From positions 62,001 through 126,000 of the forward strand of contig NZ_JAEHJZ010000010.1 of NCBI RefSeq assembly GCF_016469035.1: a stretch of DNA of 64,000 nucleotides, read 5' to 3'. This stretch comes from Gelidibacter salicanalis (lineage in GTDB: Bacteria; Bacteroidota; Bacteroidia; Flavobacteriales; Flavobacteriaceae). A program made the position numbers and the translations under genes. The notes under the pieces are model-generated. The model ran no database searches, was not told the origin of the DNA, and saw only the letters and a program-made list of their open reading frames with translations. This document shows positions 22,657 through 53,555 of this stretch, one piece after another; within the stretch, counting starts at the first letter, position 1, and every line of letters starts with the position of its first letter.

Positions 22657-23739
22657 TTACCCGTTAATAATCTTCTCCTGATGATTAATGGATTCCTGGT
22701 GAATGGCTTTAAACATTTTAAGAATAAACTCTTCACTCAATCCATTTTGCTCACCTTCCAAGACCATATTGCCTAAAATTTCATTCCAACGTTTACTTTG
22801 TAAAACCGCAACGTTTTTTTGTTTTTTCAGGACACCAATGCCGTCAGAGAACCTCATACGCTTGCCCATCATTTCAATAAGTTGATTGTCTACAACATCA
22901 ATTTGAGCTCTCAAATTACTTAAGTTGGTATTGTATTCCATTTCAGGATCGGACTCTTTTCTGATTTTCAAATCTTTCATCATTTGAATCAACGCTTTTG
23001 GTGTAACTTGTTGCGCCGCATCACTCCATGCCGCATCCGGATCCGTATGTGTTTCAATCATAAGTCCGTCAAAATTCAAATCTAAGGCTGTTTGAGACAC
23101 GTCAAAAATCATATCGCGTTTTCCTGTAATGTGCGATGGGTCATTGATTAAAGGCAAATCAGGGAATTTGGTTTGCAATTCAATGGCCAACTGCCATTCC
23201 GGGTTATTTCTATATTTTGTTTTGTCATACGTTGAAAAACCTCTGTGTATGGCTCCCAATCTTTTGATATCTGCAGAAGCCAAGCGCTCAATGGCACCTA
23301 ACCAAAGCGGCAAATCTGGGTTGACCGGATTTTTTACCAATACAATTTTGTCGGTTCCTTTTAAGGCATCTGCAATTTCCTGAACAATAAAGGGGCTTAC
23401 GGTAGACCGTGCACCAATCCAAAGCAAGTCAATATCATGTTCTAAAGCCAACTCCACATGCGCTCTATTGGCCACTTCCGTAGCGGTTTTCATGCCTGTT
23501 TCTTGCTTCACTTTTTGCAACCATTTTAAACCTAAAGCACCGACACCTTCAAACATCCCAGGGCGTGTACGTGGTTTCCATATTCCAGCCCTGTAATAAC
23601 TCACATCCGTATCTTTTAACTGATGGGCGATACCTAAGACTTGTTCTTCTGTTTCTGCGCTACATGGGCCTGCAATGACCAATGGATGATCCAATTTTAA
23701 ATCATCCAACCATGTTCTTAACTCTTTCTTGTTTTCCAT
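22657..23739 (-). CDS. Bifunctional DAHP synthase / chorismate mutase
   Basis: Catalyses entry into the shikimate pathway (phosphoenolpyruvate plus erythrose 4-phosphate) and rearranges chorismate to prephenate. Of 360 residues, the N-terminal 250 form the 3-deoxy-7-phosphoheptulonate synthase domain (VIAGPCSAET at 21-30, then AGIWKPRTRPGMFEG) and the last 95 an AroQ chorismate mutase (LRAQIDVVDNQLIEMMGKR). The fusion lets the mutase domain control the synthase, as known in this family. It is the last gene of the phe/tyr operon, with a 119-nt gap to tyrA. Confidence 0.93.
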   Translation of the reverse strand: MENKKELRTWLDDLKLDHPLVIAGPCSAETEEQVLGIAHQLKDTDVSYYRAGIWKPRTRPGMFEGVGALGLKWLQKVKQETGMKTATEVANRAHVELALEHDIDLLWIGARSTVSPFIVQEIADALKGTDKIVLVKNPVNPDLPLWLGAIERLASADIKRLGAIHRGFSTYDKTKYRNNPEWQLAIELQTKFPDLPLINDPSHITGKRDMIFDVSQTALDLNFDGLMIETHTDPDAAWSDAAQQVTPKALIQMMKDLKIRKESDPEMEYNTNLSNLRAQIDVVDNQLIEMMGKRMRFSDGIGVLKKQKNVAVLQSKRWNEILGNMVLEGEQNGLSEEFILKMFKAIHQESINHQEKIING

Positions 23740-23827: not shown

Positions 23828-23862
23828 TATTTTCTATTTTCTATTTACTATTTTCTATTTAC
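23828..23862. repeat. Heptad repeats at the 3' end of tyrA
   Basis: Five seven-base units TATTTTC or TATTTAC in tandem; the last unit contains the tyrA stop codon (TTA on the plus strand at 23859-23861). Confidence 0.85.
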
Positions 23863-24710
23863 TCAATCCCGTTCAAAATCTCCTTAATATGATTGGTATC
23901 CTTCATTTCTGAATAAATGGCCTCAAAATCATCAGCATGCATCAGCGTCCTGAATTTTGTGAGATTGTTGATATATTCATCCAAAGTTTCAAGGACGTTG
24001 GTTTTGTTTTGCTTAAAGATTGGTGTCCACATTTCTGGAGAACTTTTTGCCAAACGTACCGTTGATGCAAATCCACTGCCCGCCATATCAAAAATATCGC
24101 GTTCATTTTTCTCTTTATCAATCACTGTTTTTCCTAACATAAACGCACTGATGTGCGATAAATGCGACACATAGGCAATATGTTTGTCGTGTGCCTCAGG
24201 ATTCATATAGCGGATGCGCATGCCCAAATCCGTAAACAATTGCAATGCCCTTTCCTGAAGTTTGAAGGCTGTTTTTTCCACTTCGCAAATAATATTGGTC
24301 TTGTTTTTATACAACCCCAAAATAGCTGCTTTAGGTCCTGAAAATTCAGTTCCTGCAATAGGATGCGTGGCCAAAAAATTACGACGCTTCGGATGTTGGT
24401 CGATGGCTTTGCAAATTTCGGCTTTTGTAGAACCGACGTCCATCACCAAAGTATCATCTGAAACTAATTCCAATATTTTTAAAATTTCAGTAACTGCGGC
24501 ATCTACAGGGATGGATAGAATTACCAAATCGGCATGCTTCAACTCTTCATACGTAGCTTTAGCGTCAATTACGTTGAGCTGAAGGGCATCCTCCAAGTGT
24601 GCATCGTTATGATCAATGCCGAATACTTTTATGCTGGAATCATGTTTCTTAATATCGAGCGCCAAACTACCGCCAATCAATCCAACACCTATGATGTATA
24701 TGTTTTTCAT
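23859..24710 (-). CDS. tyrA: Prephenate dehydrogenase
   Basis: Oxidises and decarboxylates prephenate to 4-hydroxyphenylpyruvate for tyrosine. The 283-residue protein starts with the NAD-binding GVGLIGGS (residues 7-14), and includes ATHPIAGTEFSGP (about 115-127), which carries the catalytic His and substrate-binding residues. No ACT domain is present. The start lies 1 nt from the stop of the aminotransferase gene; the 3' end is made of heptad repeats. Confidence 0.93.
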   Translation of the reverse strand: MKNIYIIGVGLIGGSLALDIKKHDSSIKVFGIDHNDAHLEDALQLNVIDAKATYEELKHADLVILSIPVDAAVTEILKILELVSDDTLVMDVGSTKAEICKAIDQHPKRRNFLATHPIAGTEFSGPKAAILGLYKNKTNIICEVEKTAFKLQERALQLFTDLGMRIRYMNPEAHDKHIAYVSHLSHISAFMLGKTVIDKEKNERDIFDMAGSGFASTVRLAKSSPEMWTPIFKQNKTNVLETLDEYINNLTKFRTLMHADDFEAIYSEMKDTNHIKEILNGIE

Positions 24711-24711
24711 A

Positions 24712-25857
24712 TTATTTTACTCTAGCAATCGCTTCATCCAATTCTTCTACAGTCGCACATAATGAAAACCTAATATACCCTTCGCCATTGCTTCCAAAAA
24801 TGGTTCCGGGGGCCACGAATATGGAGTGCTCCTTTAAGATCATATCAATATAGGCTTCGGCTGTTTTATGTGATGGTAACTTTGCCCAGACAAATAACCC
24901 TGTGGCAGTTTTATCATAAGTACAGTTTAATGCGGTTGCCAAATCCCACACTTTTTGACGACGTTCTTCATAGACGCTATTTAAACTTATAAACCACATT
25001 TTTGAGCACTTTAAAGCTTCAATAGCGCCTTTTTGGATGCCATAGAACATGCCAGAGTCCATATTGCTTTTCACTTTTAAAATGGCATCAATATATTCTG
25101 AACGTCCCGAGACCATGCCCACGCGCCATCCGGCCATGTTGAAGGTTTTACTTAAAGAATTCAATTCTAAACAGACGTCTTTGGCGCCTTTGTATTTTAG
25201 AATACTTCGTGGGTATTTGTTCAGGACAAAACTGTAGGGGTTGTCATTTACCACTAAAATATTGTGTCGTTTTGCAAACGTAATAATGTCTTCAAAAACT
25301 TTATTGCTTGCCGTAGCACCTGTTGGCATATGCGGGTAACTGATCCACATCAATTTTACTTTAGACAGGTCGCTTTTTTCTAAGGCTATCAAATCTGGGC
25401 ACCAATCATTTTCTGCTAACAAGTCGTAAAACACAGGTGTTGCCCCTACAAGTTTGGTTACCGATTCATAAGTTGGATATCCCGGATTTGGAATCAGGAC
25501 TTCATCACCTTCATTCAAAAACGCCATTGAAATATGCATGATGCCTTCCTTACTTCCTATTAAAGGCAACACCTCAGACAAAGGACTTAAAGATACGCCA
25601 AAATGTTCTTTATAGAACCCGGCCATGGCTTCCCTTAACTCTGGCAGACCTTGATAACTTTGGTATTTATGCGCTACGGCATCATTCAAACTTTCTGTCA
25701 TTGCTGCAATAACGCGTGTTGGAGGCTCCAGATCTGGACTTCCAATTCCTAAATTGATAATAGGCTTTCCCTGAGCTTTAAGCAAGTTAACCTCTCTCAA
25801 TTTCTTGGAGAAATAGTATTCTTCTACTGTGTTTAATCGATTTGCAAAAGTGATCAT
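24712..25857 (-). CDS. Class I/II aminotransferase, probably aromatic
   Basis: A 381-residue PLP-dependent fold-type I aminotransferase. The PLP lysine is K237 in SLSKTFNMAGWRVG; the substrate carboxylate Arg is expected near the C-terminus (YIRFSLC). Its place between pheA and tyrA indicates transamination of phenylpyruvate, 4-hydroxyphenylpyruvate or prephenate (inferred). The ATG overlaps the pheA stop (ATGA). The common YPNNPTG motif reads YPHMPTG (174-180). An aspartate or LL-diaminopimelate specificity cannot be excluded. Confidence 0.85.
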   Translation of the reverse strand: MITFANRLNTVEEYYFSKKLREVNLLKAQGKPIINLGIGSPDLEPPTRVIAAMTESLNDAVAHKYQSYQGLPELREAMAGFYKEHFGVSLSPLSEVLPLIGSKEGIMHISMAFLNEGDEVLIPNPGYPTYESVTKLVGATPVFYDLLAENDWCPDLIALEKSDLSKVKLMWISYPHMPTGATASNKVFEDIITFAKRHNILVVNDNPYSFVLNKYPRSILKYKGAKDVCLELNSLSKTFNMAGWRVGMVSGRSEYIDAILKVKSNMDSGMFYGIQKGAIEALKCSKMWFISLNSVYEERRQKVWDLATALNCTYDKTATGLFVWAKLPSHKTAEAYIDMILKEHSIFVAPGTIFGSNGEGYIRFSLCATVEELDEAIARVK

Positions 25858-26681
25858 TGTCGTGCGTTTTTATATTCGCCCAAAACCTTAAAGTCTTGTG
25901 CCATAATTTCCATTATTGATTTTGCTTTTTGATAATCTTGATACGCTTCAAAAGTGACATCCACAAAAAAAGCATACTTCCATGGTGTCTCTATTTTTGG
26001 TAAGGATTGAATTTTGGTAAGGTTTAATCTACAATCACTCATCACATTTAAAATAGACGCTAAACTGCCCCGTTTATGATCAAGTTCAAATTTTAGTGAG
26101 GCCTTGTTAATTTTAACTTCGTCAACATCAAAATTGGATGTCCTAGCGATCACAAACCTAGTTTCATTGTGTTTGATGGTTTGAATACTCTCTGAGATAA
26201 TTTCCAATTCAAACAATTCTGAAGCTAAGCGACTTGCAACAGCACCCACATTTTTCAGTTGTTTTTGTTGAATACGCTGCGCAACTTCAGCGGTATCTTT
26301 ATCTTCCACCAGTTTGATATGCGGATATTGTTTAAAAAATTGTTTACACTGTAAAAGTGCCATAGGATGGGAATACACCTCCTGGATATCTTCAATGGAC
26401 TGTCCTGACAGGCCCATTAAGTGATGTTGAATATCTAAATAATGTTCCCCGATAATGTGCAAATGATTATTATCTATGAGCGCATAATTAGGAATAATTG
26501 AGCCTGCAATGGAGTTCTCAATAGCCATAATTACAGCATCTGTTTTATGGGTCAGTACACTTTGCACTGCCCCATCGAACGTCATACACTCGTCAACATT
26601 TACAGGCGTTTCAAAGTATTGCATGGCAACGATATGGTGAAACGATCCTTTAATTCCTTGTATGGCAACAGATTTTATCAT
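25854..26681 (-). CDS. pheA: Prephenate dehydratase
   Basis: Converts prephenate to phenylpyruvate. The 275-residue protein has the periplasmic-binding-like catalytic domain with NETRF (172-176), including the catalytic Thr174, and a C-terminal ACT domain (about 195-275). In ACT the Phe-binding ESRP motif of classic enzymes reads QSLP (225-228), so feedback by phenylalanine may be altered. It is the first gene after the long leader with a Phe-rich peptide and attenuator. Confidence 0.95.
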   Translation of the reverse strand: MIKSVAIQGIKGSFHHIVAMQYFETPVNVDECMTFDGAVQSVLTHKTDAVIMAIENSIAGSIIPNYALIDNNHLHIIGEHYLDIQHHLMGLSGQSIEDIQEVYSHPMALLQCKQFFKQYPHIKLVEDKDTAEVAQRIQQKQLKNVGAVASRLASELFELEIISESIQTIKHNETRFVIARTSNFDVDEVKINKASLKFELDHKRGSLASILNVMSDCRLNLTKIQSLPKIETPWKYAFFVDVTFEAYQDYQKAKSIMEIMAQDFKVLGEYKNARQ

Positions 26682-26780: not shown

Positions 26781-26971
26781 CGCTTTAATAGACCCCGTCT
26801 TTTGACGGGTTTAGTTCTACTAGTTCATTTTATGTCGTTCTTCTAACTTATAAAATAAGCTTGTTTCTGACTTGAATTCAATAGCCTCGAACTTTTTATA
26901 GATCCCGCCCTATGGCGGGATTAGTTCAACTAGTTCATTTTATTTCGTTCTTCTAACTTCTAAAATGAACG
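26781..26971. repeat. Two hairpin-bearing direct repeats in the pheA leader
   Basis: Copies at about 26781-26861 and 26891-26971 (offset 110). The segments 26821-26849 and 26931-26959 differ at one of 29 bases. Each copy has a hairpin: CCCGTC-TTTT-GACGGG in one and CCCGCC-CTAT-GGCGGG in the other. The stem difference is a compensated base pair. They lie between the attenuator and pheA on the transcript. Confidence 0.85.
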
Positions 26972-26981
26972 TTTCACTAAC

Positions 26982-27013
26982 AAAAAAAAGTCCCGATTTT
27001 CATCGAGACTTTT
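26982..27013 (-). terminator. Attenuator terminator of the phe/tyr operon
   Basis: On the minus strand AAAAGTCTCGAT (27013-27002) pairs over 12 bp, with one G-U wobble, with ATCGGGACTTTT (26997-26986), closed by a GAAA tetraloop. Eight T end the element. Its 5' arm can instead pair with part of the leader-peptide coding region. Confidence 0.9.
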
Positions 27014-27036
27014 ACATTAAATTTATAGTTTATAAA

Positions 27037-27114
27037 TTACACATACGAAGTCTCGTCTTTTCTGCTAAAAAAGAAATAAAACGAGTTATGATATGTATTA
27101 GTTATTGTTTTCAT
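27037..27114 (-). CDS. Phe/Tyr-rich leader peptide of the pheA operon
   Basis: A 25-codon reading frame (start 27114, stop 27037-27039) just after the candidate promoter. Residues 12-16 are FYFFF, preceded by Y8 and followed by Y24. Codons 10-13 overlap one half of a hairpin (27078-27085) whose other half (27052-27061) lies in codons 18-21. The latter also pairs with the terminator 5' arm: CGAGACTT (27048-27055) with AAGTCTCG (27004-27011). This is the classical 1:2:3:4 attenuator layout, in which stalling at Phe/Tyr codons would favour the antiterminator. Confidence 0.85.
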   Translation of the reverse strand: MKTITNTYHNSFYFFFSRKDETSYV

Positions 27115-27126
27115 AATTTGATTTTG

Positions 27127-27156
27127 CTAAAGTAGATAATTAATTTTATAAACAAA
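27127..27156 (-). promoter_or_regulatory. Candidate promoter of the phe/tyr operon
   Basis: On the minus strand TTTG (27156-27153) is followed after 18 nt by TACTTTAG (27134-27127), a seven-of-eight match to TAnnTTTG. Transcription would begin just upstream of the leader peptide. Confidence 0.6.
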
Positions 27157-34965: not shown

Positions 34966-35017
34966 TCTTGTAAAAAAATAAAAATGTCATCAGGAAAGTG
35001 AGAGAAAATACACTTTG

Positions 35018-35133
35018 GTTATCTGTCTAAATCCTGAAATAAATTCAGCATAAAGTAGAATTTAGCACCTTCTTTATAAGTAAAGGGTTGCTAAGGCTTC
35101 AACGGGTCTAATCCCTCTGCCTTTCGTGATAAC
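35018..35133 (-). ncRNA. SAM-I (S-box) riboswitch before metH
   Basis: On the minus strand GTTATC (35133) and GATAAC (35018) close the element. Between them lie AGAGGGATTAGACCCG, GAAGCCTTAGCAACCC and GAAGGTGCTAAATTC, the conserved core of the SAM-I aptamer. It precedes split metH and resembles closely the copy before metY. A long T run is not seen immediately after, so control may be translational. Confidence 0.93.
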
Positions 35134-35192
35134 AAATATTAATAATATGAACTGTGGACGAAATTAAGTCATAAAAAATGGTTTACCAACTT

Positions 35193-50295: not shown

Positions 50296-51600
50296 TTAGT
50301 TAGATGAATTTTTTAACAAATTTTCCTTAACTACTTTAAATGCCTGTGTTAAATCGGCTTTTAAATCATCAATATGCTCTAGACCAACGGACAAGCGGAT
50401 CAAATCTTTTGTGACTCCAGTAGCTTCTTGAGCTTCTACCGATAATTGTTGGTGCGTCGTACTAGCTGGATGAATAATTAGCGATTTGGTGTCACCAATA
50501 TTTGCTAATAACGAGAATAACTCCGTTTTATCGGCAATAGTTTTTGCAGATTCATAGCCACCAACAACTCCAAAAGTCACTAATCCACTCTGACCTTCAG
50601 GCAAGTATTTTTCTGCTAAAGGTTTATACGGACTACTCTCAAGACCAGGATAATTGACCCAAGTTACCTCTTTTTGTTCCTGTAGCCATTTGGCTAATTC
50701 CAAAGCACTTTTACTGTGTTGCTTGATACGCAATTCTAAAGTTTCCAACCCTTGAATAATTTGAAAGGCATTAAACGGACTCAACGCTGAACCATAATCA
50801 CGCAAACCTTCAATACGTACTTTTGCAATAAATGAGGCTTCTTTTAGAACATCAGTATATACCAAACCGTGGTATCCTGCCGATGGCTCTGTAAACTCAG
50901 GGAATTTACCATTGGCCCAATCAAAAGTTCCGGCATCAATAATGGCACCTCCAAGGGCTGTCCCATTACCGTTTACATATTTTGTTAAGGAATGAATAAC
51001 AATATTAGCACCGTGCTCTATAGGTTTTACCAAGTATGATGTGGCAATGGTATTGTCTACAATCAAGGGCACTTTATGCGCCTTAGCTTCTTTAGAAATG
51101 GCTTTGATATCCAAAACATCTAATTTTGGGTTTCCTAAAGATTCAATAAAGAACACTCTTGTGTTTTCTTGAGCAGCTTCATTAAAGTTTTCAGGATCAG
51201 AAGGATCTACAAAAGTAGTGGTAATGCCATGTCTTGGCAATGTCACGCTCAATAAATTGTAAGTTCCACCATACAAACTACTAGACGCCACAATATGGTC
51301 TCCAGCTCTCAAGAGTGTTAATAAGGTTGTGGCAATAGCTGCGGTTCCTGAAGCGGTAACCACGGCTGCAATGCCGCCATCGAGTGCTGCTAAGCGCTGC
51401 TCTAAAATGTCGTTTGTAGGGTTGTTTATTCTGGTGTAAATGTTTCCTGGTTCTGCCAATGCAAAGAGGTTTGCTGCATGGTCAGAATCTTTAAAAACAT
51501 ACGCTGTAGATTGATAAATAGGCACTGCTCTGGTGCCTCCATTTGCTTGAACATCGTGTCCTGCGTGCAACGCTTGGGTTGCGAATTTGTGTGTACTCAT
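50296..51600 (-). CDS. metY: O-acetylhomoserine aminocarboxypropyltransferase
   Basis: A 434-residue PLP enzyme that makes homocysteine from O-acetylhomoserine and sulfide. The PLP lysine is in VIHSLTKYVNGNGTALGG; the AHS-sulfhydrylase insert around IIDAGTFDWANGKFPEFTEPS distinguishes it from MetZ. First gene after the SAM-I riboswitch. Both metY and metZ occur, so two homocysteine-forming enzymes are present. Confidence 0.94.
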   Translation of the reverse strand: MSTHKFATQALHAGHDVQANGGTRAVPIYQSTAYVFKDSDHAANLFALAEPGNIYTRINNPTNDILEQRLAALDGGIAAVVTASGTAAIATTLLTLLRAGDHIVASSSLYGGTYNLLSVTLPRHGITTTFVDPSDPENFNEAAQENTRVFFIESLGNPKLDVLDIKAISKEAKAHKVPLIVDNTIATSYLVKPIEHGANIVIHSLTKYVNGNGTALGGAIIDAGTFDWANGKFPEFTEPSAGYHGLVYTDVLKEASFIAKVRIEGLRDYGSALSPFNAFQIIQGLETLELRIKQHSKSALELAKWLQEQKEVTWVNYPGLESSPYKPLAEKYLPEGQSGLVTFGVVGGYESAKTIADKTELFSLLANIGDTKSLIIHPASTTHQQLSVEAQEATGVTKDLIRLSVGLEHIDDLKADLTQAFKVVKENLLKNSSN

Positions 51601-51654: not shown

Positions 51655-51733
51655 CAAATGCATCATCACTGACGTACCAAATAGAAAAATGTTAAAAAGA
51701 AAATTATAATTACAGATGAGTAATTATGTTTAG

Positions 51734-51850
51734 TTATCTATCCAATTGCCCGATAAATGAATCAGCAATTAAGTAGAATTTAGCACCTTCTCTATTGCTA
51801 GAGGGTTGCTAAGGCTTCGTCGGGTCTAATCCCTCTGCCTTTCTTGATAA
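51734..51850 (-). ncRNA. SAM-I (S-box) riboswitch before metY
   Basis: On the minus strand TTATC (51850) and GATAA (51734) form P1. The core holds AGAGGGATTAGACCCG, GAAGCCTTAGCAACCC and GAAGGTGCTAAATTC, nearly identical to the metH copy. The expression platform may involve the hairpin at 51639-51654. Confidence 0.94.
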
Positions 51851-51880
51851 CACTTCAATAAGTTTTGAACTTTGTGAACG

Positions 51881-52089: not shown

Positions 52090-52102
52090 CCTCATATTAA
52101 TT

Positions 52103-52234
52103 GAGAGGAAAGATTTGACTGATTGCAACCTCTTCTGAATCGGAAAATCCGAGGACGAGATCCCCTATCAAGTAGGAGATTAAAAATGCTAAAGGCAGTG
52201 TAAACTACCTTCGACGCGCAACGTCAAATCTTCC
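52103..52234 (+). ncRNA. SAM-II-like riboswitch candidate with long loop before metK
   Basis: GAGAGG (52103-52108) pairs with CCTCTT (52129-52134) around a loop containing GATTTGACTGATTGCAA, which resembles the SAM-II L1 loop. After a roughly 50-nt insert, AATGCTAAAGG (52185-52195) matches the second conserved part of SAM-II. The later GTCAAATC (52223-52230) can pair with GATTTGAC (52112-52119), which would compete with the pseudoknot and could be the expression platform. The family call rests on memory of SAM-II, so a long-loop SAM-II variant is the best reading. Confidence 0.75.
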
Positions 52235-52259: not shown

Positions 52260-53555
52260 ATGGCGTATTTATTTACTTCAGAGAGTGTGTCTGAAGGACA
52301 CCCAGATAAAGTAGCAGATCAAATTAGTGATGCTTTAATCGATAATTTTTTAGCTTTTGATAAAGACTCAAAAGTAGCTTGTGAAACCTTAGTCACTACA
52401 GGACAAGTTGTTCTTGCTGGAGAAGTAAGGTCTAACACCTACATAGACGTTCAAAAGATAGCTAGAGATACCATTAATAAAATTGGGTACACCAAAGGTG
52501 CCTATATGTTTGATGGCAATTCTTGTGGCGTATTTTCTGCAATTCATGAACAATCTGAAGACATCAATAGAGGTGTGGACAGAGCTAATAAAGAAGAGCA
52601 AGGCGCTGGAGACCAAGGCATGATGTTTGGCTATGCCACAAACGAAACTGAAAATTATATGCCTCTGGCTTTAGATCTTTCACATCGGTTGATGATTGAA
52701 TTGGCAGCTTTACGTAAAGAAGAAAAGGTCATTACATATTTACGTCCCGACTCCAAAAGTCAAGTGACTATTGAATATAGCGATGACAACGTGCCGCAGC
52801 GCATTGATGCCATTGTGATTTCTACCCAGCATGACGATTTTGTAAAACCCAAATCAAGTTCTAAAGCTGATGTTGATGCCGCTGAAACTGAAATGTTAGA
52901 AAAAATCAGAAAAGATATCGTTGATATTTTGATCCCGAGAGTTGTTGCCGGACTTCCTGAACATATTCAGGTGTTATTTAATGAGGATATTGCCTACCAT
53001 ATCAATCCTACAGGGAAATTCGTTATTGGAGGACCACATGGCGACACCGGACTTACAGGACGCAAAATTATTGTAGATACCTATGGCGGAAAAGGCGCCC
53101 ATGGTGGTGGTGCTTTTAGCGGAAAAGACCCGAGTAAGGTAGACAGAAGTGCTGCTTATGCTACGCGTCATATTGCTAAAAATCTAGTAGCTGCAGGCTT
53201 ATGTGACGAAATTTTGGTTCAGGTAAGCTATGCCATTGGCGTTGTAAAACCGACTTCTATATATGTGGACACTTACGGCACCTGCCCGTTTAACTTGACG
53301 GACGGAGAGATTGCTGAGAAAATTTTCGAAATTTTCGATATGCGTCCAGCCGCCATTGAAACACGTTTAAATTTACGTCAACCCATGTATAGTGAAACGG
53401 CTGCTTATGGCCATATGGGACGCGTTAATGAAACAGTTTCTAAAACTTTTGAGCAATTTAATGGGAAAACTGTCACTCTTGACGTAGAGTTGTTTACTTG
53501 GGAGAAATTGGATTATGTAGAGAAAGTGAAGGCTGCGTTTGGAATTTCTGAATAG
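52260..53555 (+). CDS. metK: S-adenosylmethionine synthetase
   Basis: Makes SAM from methionine and ATP. The 431-residue protein shows the start [31 protein letters not shown] (about 116-127) and [18 protein letters not shown] (about 278-295), the nucleotide and metal loops. It is longer than E. coli MetK, as usual in Bacteroidota. Preceded by the SAM-II-like element and followed by a terminator. Confidence 0.97.

Follow-up and report, generated by a model that had tools for sequence, protein, structure and literature searches.

The pheA operon of the 64-kb stretch of Gelidibacter DNA analyzed here (referred to as the window) is very probably controlled by ribosome-mediated transcription attenuation in response to the charging of tRNA-Phe and tRNA-Tyr. 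Sequence and comparison with relatives show the anatomy of the attenuator, the promoter motif, the conserved aromatic codons, the 2:3 and 3:4 pairings, which are conserved and exclude each other, and the genes of the operon (Table 1). Transcription would start a few bases ahead of the leader open reading frame (ORF), at a putative start site. When Phe and Tyr are ample, the ribosome would reach the stop codon at 27037 and hide segment 2, whereupon segments 3 and 4 would pair and RNA polymerase would halt at the T-run. When Phe or Tyr is short, the ribosome would stall in the FYFFF codons and leave segment 2 free for the emerging segment 3; this 2:3 pairing would exclude the terminator, and pheA, the aminotransferase gene, tyrA, and the gene for the DAHP synthase-chorismate mutase fusion (DAHPS/CM) would be transcribed. 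The parts of this scheme that we infer are the translation of the leader ORF, the starvation response, and a sufficiently close coupling between ribosome and polymerase.

RESULTS

Anatomy of the leader and its operon

Between the promoter and the first gene lies a short ORF in which codons for the operon's products form a run; an intrinsic terminator follows this ORF, ahead of that gene. This layout had been proposed from the letters of the DNA alone (referred to here as the sequence-only reading), and its elements stood up to analysis. The 25-codon frame with FYFFF at codons 12 to 16 is exact, TTTG and TACTTTAG are found ahead of it at the proposed 18-nt spacing, and folding returns the 12-bp, GAAA-looped terminator with its eight T (stem, 27013-27002 paired with 26997-26986). 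The proposed complementarity is also exact, with CGAGACTT (27055-27048) matching AAGTCTCG (27011-27004) in the terminator 5' arm. The leader RNA (26980-27130) has a folding energy of -34.3 kcal/mol, compared with -18.6 ± 3.0 kcal/mol for shuffled sequences (z = -5.2; 0 of 200 shuffles as good). The AT-rich hairpin at the stop codon (27038-27020, minus strand) is kept in the core clade and is possibly a pause site.

Table 1 Features of the pheA leader and operon in the window
Feature	Position	Strand	Basis
Promoter -33 element TTTG	27153..27156	-	Sequence and motif scan
Promoter -7 element TACTTTAG, spacer of 18 nt to TTTG	27127..27134	-	Sequence and motif scan
Leader peptide ORF MKTITNTYHNSFYFFFSRKDETSYV, 25 codons, stop TAA	27037..27114	-	ORF reading and relatives
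Regulatory codons 12-16, Phe-Tyr-Phe-Phe-Phe (FYFFF)	27067..27081	-	ORF reading and relatives
Outer helix 5' arm ATACATAT, partner 27046-27039	27091..27098	-	Fold; 94.2% of cells paired (54 rows)
Segment 1, overlapping the aromatic run; window partner 27063-27052	27072..27085	-	Fold
Segment 2 CGAGACTT, antiterminator 5' strand, within the ORF end	27048..27055	-	Complementarity, model, duplex test
AT-rich hairpin between segments 2 and 3, beginning in the stop codon	27020..27038	-	Fold; 83.5% of cells paired
Segment 3, terminator 5' arm (segment 2 partner, 27004-27011)	27002..27013	-	Fold and alignment
Segment 4, terminator 3' arm	26986..26997	-	Fold and alignment
Terminator T-run, eight T (four inside the stem)	26982..26989	-	Sequence
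Interspersed repeat, two copies (26965-26895 and 26855-26785), between terminator and pheA	26785..26965	-	Genome repeat search
pheA, prephenate dehydratase	25854..26681	-	PF00800, 179.8 bits
Class I/II aminotransferase	24712..25857	-	PF00155, E = 1e-57
tyrA, prephenate dehydrogenase	23859..24710	-	NF006307 above its cutoff; PF02153, PF20463
DAHP synthase fused to chorismate mutase (DAHPS/CM)	22657..23739	-	PF00793 and PF01817

TTTG and TACTTTAG, with their 18-nt spacer, form a Bacteroidota-type promoter motif. The pattern TTTG-N16-20-TAnnTT has a single match on the minus strand of 27200-26682, and the motif scan found no second promoter of this type between the leader promoter and pheA (27126-26682). 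Among the 80 core leaders, i.e., the window and 79 further loci without the contig-cut locus L079 (a set also used for the T-run-gap and ribosome-model counts below), 71 carry the pattern no more than 75 nt from the ATG of the leader, compared with 222 of 6966 background tiles of 75 nt (3.2%).

The genes identified in the operon fit the earlier proposal that the combined Phe/Tyr run would match an operon making both amino acids. gldA is divergent from this operon. A profile search found two PF00793 proteins in the genome, one of them in the pheA operon; the other, of 273 amino acids, is probably a KDO8P synthase, class II DAHP synthases lying outside the scope of this search. The gap between terminator and pheA measures 300 nt in the window and 514 nt in the Gelidibacter locus L035, and the length of the insert between attenuator and pheA varies among Gelidibacter. 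The T-run ends 0 to 6 nt from the start of the PheA match in 33 of the 80 leaders, which leaves no space for a second promoter there. The repeat copies in the gap of the window contain a GC-rich hairpin and were considered as a component of the switch, a role that we rejected given that they belong to an interspersed repeat with at least 40 matches in the genome, both window copies included (40 of 52 candidates scored).

Conservation of the leader across relatives

When both strands of the window were scanned for ORFs that have 5 or more aromatic residues in 7 and a terminator behind them, the leader was the one site found, and a scan with ten residue classes returned the leader again as the sole find of a peptide with a terminator. 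Among relatives, we confirmed 153 pheA loci and kept the closest 80, which are thus a nonrandom sample; the nine nearest named PheA loci are all labeled Gelidibacter, with 84 to 93% identity. A complete aromatic-run ORF and then a T-run precede pheA at 79 of these 80 loci, and at the remaining locus, L079, where the contig begins inside the leader, the sequence present keeps the frame.

For wider sampling we used a joint criterion, i.e., an aromatic-run peptide together with a terminator in the pheA upstream region, with dinucleotide shuffles as the null. At the level of the family, where the sample beyond the genus comprised all 53 genomes with a PheA match (some of which are also among the closest 80 loci), the criterion held for 51/53 regions compared with 1/1060 shuffles. 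For the order, 30 of 70 matching genomes were sampled (14 of 16 from the smaller families, 13 of 26 from family f5, and 3 of 28 from family f16), and the other families yielded 8/15 regions compared with 0/300 shuffles. The other orders of the class, represented by 40 of 45 genomes with a PheA match, yielded 25/40 regions compared with 0/800 shuffles. This reach across the class covers matching genomes alone, 52 of 198 sampled class genomes having had a PheA match to this query. The joint criterion found no leader in the 12 regions of f5 (shuffles, 0/240), whose PheA is only 28 to 33% identical, nor in the 3 regions of f16 (shuffles, 0/60), whose genomes measure 0.6 Mb. One f5 locus with a closer PheA, L160, was counted among the 15 other-family regions, and the leader is absent there. 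Regions failing the criterion numbered 2/53 in the family, 7/15 in other families, and 15/40 in the class, and these failures are partly threshold misses, since the ribosome-model set described below recovers L122, L029, L137, L138, L155, and L201.

The core clade retains more than the run, with TY..NWFYFFFS and E..YV present in many rows; beyond it, little except the aromatic run persists, and across the class the leader ORF persists while RNA sequence and length change. The sequence-only reading had named two outcomes that would tell against it. One was loss of the peptide or of the 2:3 pairing in relatives; instead, the peptide codons and the pairing are conserved across genera and families and as far as other orders of the class. 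The other was a transcript beginning beyond the terminator, for which the motif scan found no promoter of the same type.

Codon content of the aromatic run

Phe is present in the aromatic runs of all 169 leaders that we compiled and Tyr in 168 (577 F and 381 Y), these leaders having been selected by aromatic density. Trp falls within or beside the run in 85/169 leaders, with no Trp there in the window, and was therefore rejected as an obligatory component of the run. Since the operon serves Phe and Tyr synthesis and has one of the two PF00793 proteins of the genome, our guess is that the Trp codon present in many relatives may be a readout of the shared precursor. The regular mixture of Phe and Tyr codons resembles a natural sensor with two inputs.

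Alternative pairings and the stalled ribosome

Pairing was examined in an alignment of 54 of the 80 core leaders, 26 rows having been removed as too similar. The 2:3 helix is paired in 86.1% of cells and the 3:4 helix in 93.5%, and the pairing arms are nearly invariant, with little covariation. The terminator-state structure has 4 doubly changed pairs compared with 4.4 in shuffles, and the antiterminator structure has 5 compared with 2.4, three of them in the stop-codon hairpin. In 9 rows, C-G replaces U-A at one pair of the outer helix (27098-27091 paired with 27046-27039). The sequence-only reading had proposed a search for conserved Phe/Tyr codons with covarying arms; the codons are conserved and the covariation is weak, because the arms hardly vary. 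The 1:2 pairing that it had placed at 27078-27085 is present in the fold of the window, CTCGTTTT (27085-27078) starting the 5' arm of a 12-bp hairpin (27085-27072 paired with 27063-27052), but the exact pairs are poorly kept in relatives, with 77.2% of cells paired and two of the 12 pairs broken in 43 and 46 of the 54 rows. RNAalifold favors another register, with segment 2 paired to the F-codon run itself.

Between clades, both strands of the 2:3 helix are rewritten: they read CGAGACTT/AAGTCTCG in the window, TCAGGATT/AATCCTGA in L117, and AGCGGGA/TCCCGCT in L199. The 2:3 duplex of a leader's own strands gave -11.97 kcal/mol, compared with -7.10 kcal/mol when segment 2 was foreign (92 leaders; Wilcoxon P = 1.4e-16, relatedness uncorrected). 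The own duplex was among the best 10% for 59/92 leaders and outside that range for 33/92.

We modeled a ribosome that has its A-site at the midpoint of the run and covers the 11 nt that follow this codon, and compared it with one positioned on the stop codon; the readout was the upstream pairing of segment 3 at a point when segment 4 has yet to be made. The set comprised 169 leaders (80/80 core, 51/53 family, 12/15 other-family, and 26/40 class); it overlaps in genomes with the set of the duplex test, and the members of both are related. Group means of segment 3 upstream pairing were 0.75 to 0.79 for the stalled ribosome, 0.04 to 0.20 for the ribosome at the stop codon, and 0.42 to 0.45 when the intervening sequence was shuffled; the leader of the window gave 0.71, 0.02, and 0.40, respectively. 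Stalled pairing exceeded 0.5 in 168/169 leaders, and the empirical P value against 30 shuffles was ≤0.1 in 156/169, the remaining 13/169 failing to beat 90% of their shuffles. The ORF picker took a wrong or overlong ORF in a few leaders (e.g., L120, L148, and L181), and the terminator call of L142 could not be evaluated in the model. By this computation, stalling within the run would expose an antiterminator that excludes the terminator, whereas a ribosome that has reached the stop codon would conceal it. The conserved peptide, the 2:3 pairing, and the model together argue for the ribosome-mediated attenuation that the sequence-only reading had proposed.

Leaders in series and ahead of other operons

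Two aromatic leaders in series, each with its terminator, precede pheA at L151, L190, L198, and L208 (4 of 123 pheA upstream regions). In the ribosome model, support extends to both leaders at L198, to one at L190, and marginally to the first at L208, and neither leader at L151 is supported. Two Trp leaders in series were seen at a further locus, L284.

Similar leaders lie ahead of other operons in this genome. In the trp operon, the leader MYTILNHTWWWNFSKQLS (WWW) and a terminator stand ahead of trpE (L217), and this leader matches the Rfam family RF01692 (Bacteroid-trp) with 63.8 bits. A Trp-rich ORF with a terminator was found at 28/28 TrpE loci scanned, the own locus included (28 of 30 loci were scanned, two distant paralogues being excluded). 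Ahead of hisG, the leader MKFIQSHHHHHHICTQAN (HHHHHH) precedes a terminator (L219). Two leaders rich in Ile, Leu, and Val, MNKINLNISSNISVVILSQR and MNQVLVIISVVIINSS, lie in series before ilvE-ilvD (gene names assigned by eye and with PF00920), and each has a separate terminator (L230 and L232 on contig C325, upstream of an ilvE-like gene at 159170). These tandem ilv leaders occur in 9/9 Gelidibacter genomes with this ilvE, the own genome included; a tenth Gelidibacter genome is without this ilvE homologue, and the distant locus L241 is without such a leader (10 of 30 IlvE loci were scanned, the rest being distant homologues). The ribosome model gave stalled segment 3 pairing of 0.64 to 0.96 compared with 0.31 to 0.48 for shuffled sequences at the ilv leaders of five of the nine Gelidibacter genomes. 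For the his leader it gave 0.61 compared with 0.30 and for the trp leader a weak 0.44 compared with 0.37. Upstream of thrA we found one Thr/Ile-rich ORF and no terminator.

Elsewhere in the window, a SAM-I riboswitch (51731-51853, minus strand) and a SAM-II riboswitch (52099-52202, plus strand) are arranged back to back with 245 nt between them, and each precedes one of two divergent genes, which by eye resemble those for O-acetylhomoserine sulfhydrylase (50296-51600) and metK (52260-53555). A further SAM-I riboswitch (35016-35135, minus strand) precedes a metH-like two-part gene pair (34965-33964 and 33882-31207), also named by eye.

Alternative explanations

The same hairpins could act partly or mainly on translation, with 3:4 blocking the pheA start and 2:3 freeing it. 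We consider this unlikely: hairpin and pheA start do adjoin in the 33/80 leaders with the T-run within 6 nt of the PheA match, but they are 300 nt apart in the window and 514 nt apart in the Gelidibacter locus L035, and a T-run with a 12-bp stem is typical of an intrinsic terminator. It appears highly improbable that the stall is set by the nascent peptide in the exit tunnel, as in arrest peptides, and not by scarce charged tRNA. The residues that many rows of the core clade conserve outside the run (TY..NWFYFFFS and E..YV) speak for such a peptide; however, several of the conserved flanking codons sit in pairing arms, little but the aromatic run remains beyond the core clade, and the leader codons fit the product in four operons.

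Rfam covariance models bear on the idea of a riboswitch, T-box, or protein-bound leader in which the short ORF is incidental. None matched the leader at its gathering score or came near the cutoff, and a riboswitch, a T-box, or another curated RNA family at the leader was rejected on this ground; twelve matches were below threshold, the best being RF02621 (BSnc120) on the other strand, with 31.7 bits against a cutoff of 114 (E = 1.9e-5). The strong structure of the leader RNA would suit this idea, but the ORF outlives the changes in RNA sequence and length across the class, and we assign the idea only a very slight chance. We give next to no credence to a constitutive terminator that yields a small RNA of ∼130 nt while pheA is transcribed from another promoter. 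A terminated product of ∼130 nt is to be expected anyway, but 27126-26682 holds no further promoter motif of the same type, 33/80 leaders have no space for a promoter, and the antiterminator is conserved.

DISCUSSION

Attenuation by leader peptides is a classical mechanism that has been best studied in Proteobacteria, and a work on attenuation in bacteria by Lopatovskaya et al. from 2010 may reportedly treat Bacteroidetes. The enterobacterial pheA leader combines a Phe-rich peptide run with an intrinsic terminator and alternative pairing. With this leader (RF01859, Phe_leader), the Gelidibacter leader shares the Phe run, the terminator, and the alternative pairing before pheA. It scores 26 bits against the gathering cutoff of 55 (E = 0.046), and it differs in that Tyr is mixed with Phe in 168/169 runs and in that the operon adds the aminotransferase, tyrA, and DAHPS/CM. 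RF01692 is of the same phylum and kind but concerns another amino acid and operon, and it has no match at the gathering score at the pheA leader or within the window.

Earlier publications bear on how much of this is new. According to one of them, leader peptides were known only from Proteobacteria and Actinobacteria by 2010, when Firmicutes were added (PMC2965389). RF01692, the Bacteroidete tryptophan peptide leader RNA that covers trp, is listed in PMC2864571, and leader-like short ORFs are mentioned in PMC7366714. For Bacteroides thetaiotaomicron, an attenuator was predicted in 2005 before pheA > hisHb > aroA-aroQ > tyrA (PMC1173090, Table 7), which is the same gene set in a member of the Bacteroidota, the leader peptide being unnamed in the portion consulted. 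PMC9723704 describes strong clues for leader-peptide attenuation before amino acid operons of Flavobacterium psychrophilum and reports structured 5' elements of its pheA and hisG that are conserved in Flavobacteriaceae and without Rfam hits. This pheA element is probably the same as the Gelidibacter leader, which is also carried by a genus (g48) that we take to be Flavobacterium; the portion consulted gives for it no peptide, 2:3 pairing, or reach beyond the family.

Leader-peptide attenuation is therefore already known as a kind, also in Bacteroidota, and the novelty for this phylum that the sequence-only reading had claimed was overstated, given the RF01692 match at the genome's own trp operon and the elements described in PMC9723704. 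Added here are the peptide, its pairing, its reach beyond the family, the mixed Phe/Tyr codons, and the tandem leaders. In the literature searched, we found no publication that reports the peptide, the pairing, or an occurrence outside the family, any priority being provisional. For the tandem leaders, before pheA in relatives and before ilv, the Salmonella mgtCBR leader is a precedent, with tandem attenuators and two short ORFs in one leader (PMC3641672); it differs in that it is not amino acid biosynthetic, whereas the tandem leaders here carry the same type of run in both peptides.

Taken more broadly, the element may be an ancient aromatic attenuator in the Bacteroidia, whose mixed Phe/Tyr(/Trp) run would be an OR gate for shortages fed by the operon's DAHP synthase and which would be serially doubled in several lineages, as well as before ilv in Gelidibacter, for multiplicative control. 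We offer this reading tentatively, as a possibility that on balance we doubt. If true, it would require close transcription-translation coupling in a phylum without reliance on classical Shine-Dalgarno initiation.

With this attenuator, leader-peptide attenuation extends to aromatic operons in many Bacteroidota; in one genome, four amino acid operons share the leader layout. Given that such leaders need a ribosome close behind RNA polymerase, they would offer a test of transcription-translation coupling in the phylum, and the tandem leaders of relatives would provide a simple route to studying serial attenuators.
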